Assembly (NCBI RefSeq): GCF_003614945.1
Contig: NZ_QYCZ01000001.1
Span: 1,568,001-1,632,000, forward strand
From: Bergeyella cardium
Lineage (GTDB): Bacteria; Bacteroidota; Bacteroidia; Flavobacteriales; Weeksellaceae
Direction of reading: 5' to 3'
DNA length: 64,000 nt
In this document: positions 37,615-38,273 of the stretch, in pieces
Layout of the letters: each line of letters begins with the position of its first letter
Position numbering within the stretch: the first letter of the stretch is position 1
Translations under genes and position numbers: made by a program
Notes under the pieces: model-generated
What the model saw: only the letters and a program-made list of their open reading frames with translations
Told to the model about the DNA's origin: nothing
Databases searched by the model: none

Positions 37615-37636
37615 CACCGTAGCCGGTGAAGCACTT

Positions 37637-37665
37637 AGCCCTCAACAATTGAGGGCTTTTTTTTT
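37637..37665 (+). terminator. Terminator of secA
   Basis: AGCCCTCAA (37637-37645) and TTGAGGGCT (37649-37657) form a perfect 9-bp stem with loop CAA, followed by nine T residues. Confidence 0.9.
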
Positions 37666-37822
37666 GTCCTCCCCACCTTGCAGGTGACCCAGCCGTAGCA
37701 CGGCAGGCACTTATTACAAACTAACCACGCACCGCTTACTGCTTACTGCCTAAAGCCTATTGCTTACCGCTAATAGCCAGAAATAAGATTTGATTCTTTC
37801 ATTTGATAAAAAATAATAAGCA
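37666..37822. other. Repeat-rich intergenic segment after secA
   Basis: It holds two small perfect hairpins, CACCT-TGC-AGGTG and GCCG-TAGCA-CGGC. A run of related short words follows (CGCTTACTGCTTACTGCC, GCCTATTGC, GCTAATAGCCAG). GCTAATAGC and GCCAGAAG-type words recur at 38091-38130 and 38222-38270. No coding potential is seen. Confidence 0.5.
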
Positions 37823-37929
37823 GTCTATCACGAGAAGGATAGACACTCTATTACGGGAAGGATAGACACTCTATTACGGGAAGGATAGACACTCTATTAC
37901 GAGAATGTGAGACACCCTCACACGGGAAT
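37823..37929. repeat. 23-bp tandem repeat array
   Basis: Units at 37838-37860 and 37861-37883 are identical (GATAGACACTCTATTACGGG plus AAG); 37884-37906 differs by two bases and 37907-37929 is a diverged unit. A partial unit precedes, in which GTCTATC (37823-37829) pairs with GATAGAC (37838-37844). The period is not a multiple of three and there are no spacers, so it is neither a coding nor a CRISPR repeat. Confidence 0.85.
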
Positions 37930-37970
37930 GTGGCAATACCTCACATTCTCGTGTGAGGTATTGCCACATT
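37899..37970. repeat. Two overlapping, mutually exclusive inverted repeats
   Basis: Stem A: ACGAGAATGTGAG (37899-37911) with CTCACATTCTCGT (37940-37952), 13 bp. Stem B: 37927-37944 (AATGTGGCAATACCTCAC) with 37953-37970, an 18-bp perfect stem with 8-base loop. The stems share bases 37940-37944, so only one can form at a time. They follow directly from the tandem array. Confidence 0.8.
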
Positions 37971-38180
37971 AGATATTCGCTTAACTCATTATTTAAAAAC
38001 ATCTGTATGGAGGCTCTATTCCTCCCTTAGCACAAATTAAGCGTATATAGGGGTGAGGATGTAAGCCTGCCCATAATTGACAGTTAGCTAATAGCCAAAA
38101 GCCAGTAGCTAGAAGCTATTTAATTTCTTGACATCACCAGCAAAATTTCCTGACATTAGAATGGCTGAGATTCTAATAAA

Positions 38181-38214
38181 ACAGCACTGGGCGCCCCTGC
38201 GGGGCGCCCAGTGC
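38181..38214 (-). terminator. Very GC-rich terminator of the RND permease gene
   Basis: GCACTGGGCGCCCC (38184-38197) and GGGGCGCCCAGTGC (38201-38214) form a perfect 14-bp stem with loop TGC. The minus strand continues TGTTTTATTAG. It lies 60 bases after the permease stop. 37971-38180 holds only short degenerate words and no gene. Confidence 0.75.
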
Positions 38215-38273
38215 CTATATATCTATTGGCTATCAGCTAATAGCTAACAGCCAGAAGAGCTATTTGCCAGTTG

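Follow-up and report, generated by a model that had tools for sequence, protein, structure and literature searches.

A 23-nt hairpin array between convergent genes of Bergeyella cardium, possibly an orphan of the arrays linked to HU-DUF4469 genes

The window, i.e. the whole stretch of 64,000 nucleotides analyzed here, comes from the 1.96-Mb genome of a member of Weeksellaceae (Bergeyella cardium; SecA 86-87% identical to those of Chryseobacterium and Riemerella). A tandem repeat array sits in it, flanked by two terminators, that of secA and that of a convergent gene for an RND transporter, and is outside both flanking transcription units. Both terminator positions support the original prediction on this DNA, which had placed the repeats between convergent genes and past the secA terminator. 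The features are as follows.

37637..37657, + strand: intrinsic terminator of secA (terminator search)
37734..37785, + strand: 7-nt periodic tract of the GCTTACT/GCCTAAA type; similar tracts flank other arrays (sequence, TRF)
37816..37970, + strand: whole array, 13-nt near-palindromic blocks alternating with 10-nt linkers at a 23-nt period (R2 covariance model)
37829..37838, + strand: linker CACGAGAAGG (sequence)
37839..37851, + strand: hairpin block ATAGA-CAC-TCTAT (sequence)
37862..37874, + strand: hairpin block ATAGA-CAC-TCTAT, unit identical to the preceding one (sequence)
37885..37897, + strand: hairpin block ATAGA-CAC-TCTAT (sequence)
37899..37952, + strand: alternative 13-bp stem (37899-37911 / 37940-37952), overall 13.7 kcal/mol less stable (constrained folding)
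37908..37920, + strand: block TGAGACACCCTCA, both outer arms altered from ATAG/CTAT to TGAG/CTCA (sequence, folding)
37927..37970, + strand: last unit with its own inverted copy, a perfect 19-bp stem with a loop of 6, dominant hairpin (sequence, folding)
37944..37953, - strand: inverted linker (CACGAGAATG on the minus strand) (motif search)
38183..38215, - strand: terminator of the convergent RND-transporter gene (terminator search)

Each unit consists of a 13-nt near-palindromic block and a 10-nt linker, and any 4-nt arm can pair with either of its neighbours. The tandem units are hairpins themselves, forming a chain of four blocks at the 23-nt period, and the final unit is inverted. The blocks are, in order, ATAGA-CAC-TCTAT, TGAGACACCCTCA, TGGCAATACCTCA and its inverse TGAGGTATTGCCA, and the linkers are CACGAGAAGG, TACGGGAAGG, TACGAGAATG and CACGGGAATG, with CATTCTCGTG inverted. 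The repeat is genuine and far exceeds chance expectation: TRF found units at 37824-37915 (period 23, 3.6 copies, 94% matches, score 143), which together with their 46-nt double are by far the strongest tandem array it detected in the window, and all six matches to ACGRGAAKG in the window, against 1.4 expected, fall within the array. The R2 covariance model matched it with 74.5 bits (E 2.4e-15) and 53.9 bits. The four 23-bp units, two of them identical, that had been predicted were thus recovered by TRF, with the middle two identical, and the units are contiguous and have no spacers, in agreement with the predicted absence of CRISPR spacing. The + strand array folds as RNA at -60.8 kcal/mol, compared with -32.6 +/- 3.6 kcal/mol in dinucleotide shuffles (z -7.8), and the z value of the DNA fold is also -7.8.

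The surroundings of the array carry a second dispersed repeat, consisting of intergenic 7-nt tracts (GCTTACT / GCCTAAA / GCTAATA) which often adjoin hairpin arrays; such tracts lie on both sides of the window array (37734-37785, 38076-38114 and 38225-38257) and also at L014, L015 and L016. The motif ACACCGTAGCCGGTG(A/G)GGC with a similar trailing sequence recurs in several intergenic regions (window 37615-37640, L014, L016). Rfam detected only a tRNA in the window, and among the related arrays no family above the gathering score. A small RNA, one of the functions originally suggested, is not supported at this locus, which lies outside the flanking transcription units and has a promoter-like site only at chance level. 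When orthologous secA loci of relatives (L035-L040, L073) were searched with R2, no array match was found.

An exact search for the window unit in the genome contigs gave no match. The genome-wide search that had been proposed with the original prediction, when run with the array itself, did find dispersed relatives. Nine further arrays are present in the host genome, making ten in total, and with the window array as a query, arrays of the same 13+10 architecture were obtained at C1:486.6k, 1780.9k, 1828.6k, 1715.6k and C2:72.5k. The outer arms of these own-genome arrays alternate between ATAG/CTAT and TGAG/CTCA. With models R1 and then R2, the same architecture was found in other genera of Weeksellaceae, having ACAG/CTGT arms and linkers TACGGTAAGG or TAGCCTAAGG. 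Three candidates were set aside: a lag-23 chain at L191:3554 is an AT-rich chance match, a weak single-unit match at L018 (C1:700010) lies inside an open frame, and an R1 match at G110:C5:938768 (E 0.008) was not recovered with R2. The window array is not a local minisatellite but an orphan member of this dispersed family of hairpin arrays. In one group of relatives, the g2 genomes, the family takes the form of a discrete element of about 85 bp with four blocks. In two g2 genomes (L116:1471-1560, L118:1471-1580) an array lies about 50 nt upstream of a gene whose start (LNYIGGKTKIL) resembles a D12-class DNA adenine methylase.

While the 23-nt rhythm is constant, arm sequences vary with compensation. 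When 13 three-block rows were aligned, 92.9% of the arm cells were paired and 7 of 12 pairs had changes in both partners; the covariation score reached 0.452, compared with 0.167 in shuffles and at most 0.111 for slid structures. The alternative register, in which arms pair across the linkers, is equally good (92.3%, score 0.498). As read from this alignment, the covariation shows a history of base pairing and would not by itself indicate selection, because the 13 rows are related sequences and correction of quasi-palindromes can also yield compensation. An array of protein-binding iterons, another function suggested originally, is unlikely, since arm pairing and spacing are conserved rather than a recognized sequence and the stems differ completely between loci.

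Many array flanks were found to carry one common protein C-terminus, assigned by Pfam to HU-DNA_bdg (PF14848) and DUF4469 (PF14734). This HU-DUF4469 gene is multi-copy, with six matches including fragments in the host genome and 4, 3, 11, 11 and 3 in five relatives; the relatives were selected for an R1 array match, while the HU genes within them were not so selected. We inspected 330 nt past each HU-DUF4469 stop codon. In the host genome (G000), a 23-nt hairpin array lies directly 3' of all six genes or fragments: three have (GCGAAGGTGACTCGCTCTCTCGG)n, one fragment has its variant, and two have ATAG/CTAT units, the type of the window array. Across the six Weeksellaceae genomes, chains of at least three hairpins at lag 23 stand downstream of 15 of 38 HU-DUF4469 genes, and other lags gave 0 or 1. 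Among 307 control downstream regions, taken from other genes in random stretches of G000 and G076 plus the window, there was a single lag-23 chain, which is the window array itself. TRF, which is blind to palindromes, assigned period 23 to 13 of the 38 genes and to 1 of 307 control genes (Fisher P 6e-13). The 38 loci are non-independent and form 13 related clusters; lag 23 ranked first in only five of these clusters (P about 2e-4) and, among 12 distant loci, in four (P about 0.002). In further clusters (L174, L179, L161, L168), 23-nt palindromic units missed by the strict detector were recognized by eye. The association is incomplete in both directions, as HU-DUF4469 genes at L159, L160, L171 and L177 have no array, and at least four of the ten host-genome arrays do not adjoin an HU gene.

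To avoid an array-based choice of genomes, a wider sample from class Bacteroidia was drawn by protein family alone. PF14734 is patchy, occurring in 12 of 295 genomes of the class. In G759, which belongs to another family, one HU gene stands directly before seven copies of CATCGGAGCCTAATCCGACGCAC and another before CATGGGAAAGCGATTCCCACGCC repeats, and G656 has a 22-nt palindromic array 3' of an HU gene. Outside Weeksellaceae, TRF periods of 22-24 were found for 9 of 22 HU-DUF4469 genes compared with 3 of 421 control genes, and the stems there are unrelated in sequence to the Weeksellaceae stems. An association of HU-DUF4469 genes with hairpin arrays is thus present across several genera and families. 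The conserved feature is the layout, an HU gene followed by tandem hairpins of about 23 nt, which suggests that the HU-like protein and the hairpins work together.

The predicted model of an own-genome HU-DUF4469 protein has a mean pLDDT of 90, but how its two domains are placed relative to each other is uncertain at a pTM of only 0.59. It matches a solved structure, 4fmr, a "putative bacterial DNA binding protein" (35% identity), and its N-terminal part also matches HU and IHF. The protein is probably cytoplasmic, because its start has no obvious signal peptide. A literature search by family name gave no mention of DUF4469 and nothing on the HU-DUF4469 protein. HU of E. coli has a high affinity for cruciforms and other distorted DNA; among the RNAs that it binds is naRNA4, which REP325 encodes and which acts with HU in DNA-DNA contacts (PMC6907758). 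REP325 with naRNA4 resembles the present case in that an array of extragenic palindromes has a functional connection with a protein of the HU fold, but it is not described in PMC6907758 as adjoining HU genes, whereas the arrays here adjoin HU-like genes, have units of about 23 nt with lineage-specific stems, and have as putative binder a protein with an Ig-like DUF4469 domain.

Loci of this kind vary and decay. Upstream of many HU-DUF4469 genes is a FISUMP-domain or tail-fibre-like gene. At L028, L141, L117, L156, L162 and L166, the upstream surface genes differ between paralogous loci and the HU gene is nearly identical, as if the HU gene acted as a recombination anchor. The number of units differs even between near-identical loci, with a chain of four at L156 and of six at L162 and L166. 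In related arrays downstream of HU genes, a 12-nt linker between the same arms is exactly inverted (L176 TCTCGGTAAGGA, L184 TCCTTACCGAGA); this small natural inversion at a short inverted repeat is a sign of hairpin extrusion or hairpin-guided strand switching in vivo. Truncated HU genes retain their array, and in two places little else than the array remains: some 44 C-terminal residues of an HU protein at C2:72.5k, and a short similarity to the post-stop leader at C1:1780.9k. The window array is in keeping with the last stage of such decay, though without a significant HU relic: by tblastn and alignment tests, neither an HU gene nor a significant relic was found in the window. One candidate near 38000-38030 (-), a similarity of the form AGAGCCTC..ACAGAT..TTTT, was rejected, as 16 of 300 shuffles reached the best alignment.

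We interpret the window array, with a probability of about one half, as an orphan of the HU-DUF4469-linked hairpin arrays, which would be putative structural targets of the protein. It has the R2 match and the 23-nt blocks of those arrays, and is not placed directly 3' of an HU gene. Most likely, the HU-DUF4469 protein would bind the hairpins of its own array, either as cruciforms extruded by the short arms in DNA or as hairpins in the 3' UTR of the HU mRNA. Given the preference of the HU fold for distorted or hairpin substrates, the array would be bound through shape and spacing and not through sequence, and we propose that the stems are free to diverge for this reason. Such binding might serve to regulate the protein's own locus, or to bridge and condense DNA from one array site to another. 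Loss of an HU gene, as at C2:72.5k, or copying of the array would then have left the window copy as a stray target, and we infer that it could be a distant site for the protein.

The main rival explanation, which we consider unlikely though serious, is a neutral origin: the arrays would be passive products of duplicated, recombining HU-DUF4469 loci, where hairpin slippage and template switching at 3' ends create and homogenize palindromic repeats, and the window copy would be a neutral stray. The unequal unit numbers and the inverted linkers are what such processes would leave, and the loci are paralogues of recent origin (89-94% identity across 1.3 kb). It does not explain why unrelated stems of distant families keep a unit of about 23 nt and a position at the same gene, or why other genes lack such arrays. 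Alternatively, the arrays might be stability or termination elements at the 3' end of the HU-DUF4469 mRNA that need no dedicated binding protein; a 3'-UTR role of this kind has been proposed for REP elements in mRNAs. At the host-genome loci and in G759, a strong terminator comes after the array, which follows the stop codon and so falls within the 3' UTR; folding is also strong. This explanation is nevertheless quite improbable, since the g2 arrays come after a terminator-like hairpin, the window array is beyond the terminators of both neighbours, and the fixed 23-nt spacing is left unexplained.

A mobile or recombination site (a MITE, an attC-like site or a REP moved by a transposase) has only a slim chance. 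Dispersed copies, hairpin architecture and the discrete element of the g2 genomes would suit it, but inverted repeats of at least 12 bases do not flank the window copy and the unit number is variable. BrickBuilt of Porphyromonas gingivalis, also in Bacteroidota, resembles the present arrays in its 23-nt spacerless tandem repeats, intergenic dispersal, predicted long stem-loops and variable unit number, and has as features of its own a leader and a tail with 12-nt TIRs resembling IS5-family ISPg elements, and mixed neighbours listed (PMC4596501). The window array has 23-nt tandem direct repeats without spacers, but the BrickBuilt TIRs GAGACCTTTGCA / TGCAAAGGTCTC had no match at up to 2 mismatches in 3.2 kb, and by the tests of TIRs and layout it is not a BrickBuilt MITE. 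REP/BIME elements with RAYT likewise consist of short palindromes that occur in either orientation, are scattered mainly between genes and have an associated protein gene, and the array family shares with them palindromic units in the range of about 20-40 bp, both orientations and extragenic dispersal. The present arrays differ in being tandem at a fixed period and in having a linked gene of the HU fold, not a transposase; Y1_Tnp (RAYT, PF01797) is absent from G000, while controls were positive in 5 of 14, and by these tests the window array is not a RAYT-type REP. A REP/BIME-like element was thus the closest of the three functions suggested originally, right in the dispersed palindromes of two orientations and departing from the data in RAYT and in the fixed 23-nt tandem arrangement.

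An RNA or DNA switch balanced between two states, as predicted from a 13-bp and an 18-bp stem sharing five bases, has a nearly negligible chance: the 13-bp stem is present, the longer stem is in fact 19 bp (37927-37945 / 37952-37970), the two are mutually exclusive with overlaps at 37940-37945 and at 37952, and two arm registers pair equally well along the arrays, but a fold with the 13-bp stem imposed reaches only -47.1 kcal/mol, compared with -60.8 kcal/mol, a penalty that makes switching implausible.

A further and more tentative proposal, which we regard as possible but doubtful, is a new two-part element of Bacteroidia, in which a gene for an HU-fold/Ig (DUF4469) protein and its own 3' hairpin array of about 23-nt units, recognized by shape and spacing, are duplicated through genomes behind variable surface genes, and orphan arrays, that of the window among them, would be distant binding sites tying loci together. 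The HU-DUF4469 family, which is of unknown function and has a structural-genomics entry only, gains in the hairpin arrays a candidate partner. This would be a second, independent pairing of HU-fold proteins with arrays of palindromic repeats, here with both encoded side by side, and if true, a rhythm of about 23 nt kept on unrelated sequences would separate the recognition of shape from that of sequence.
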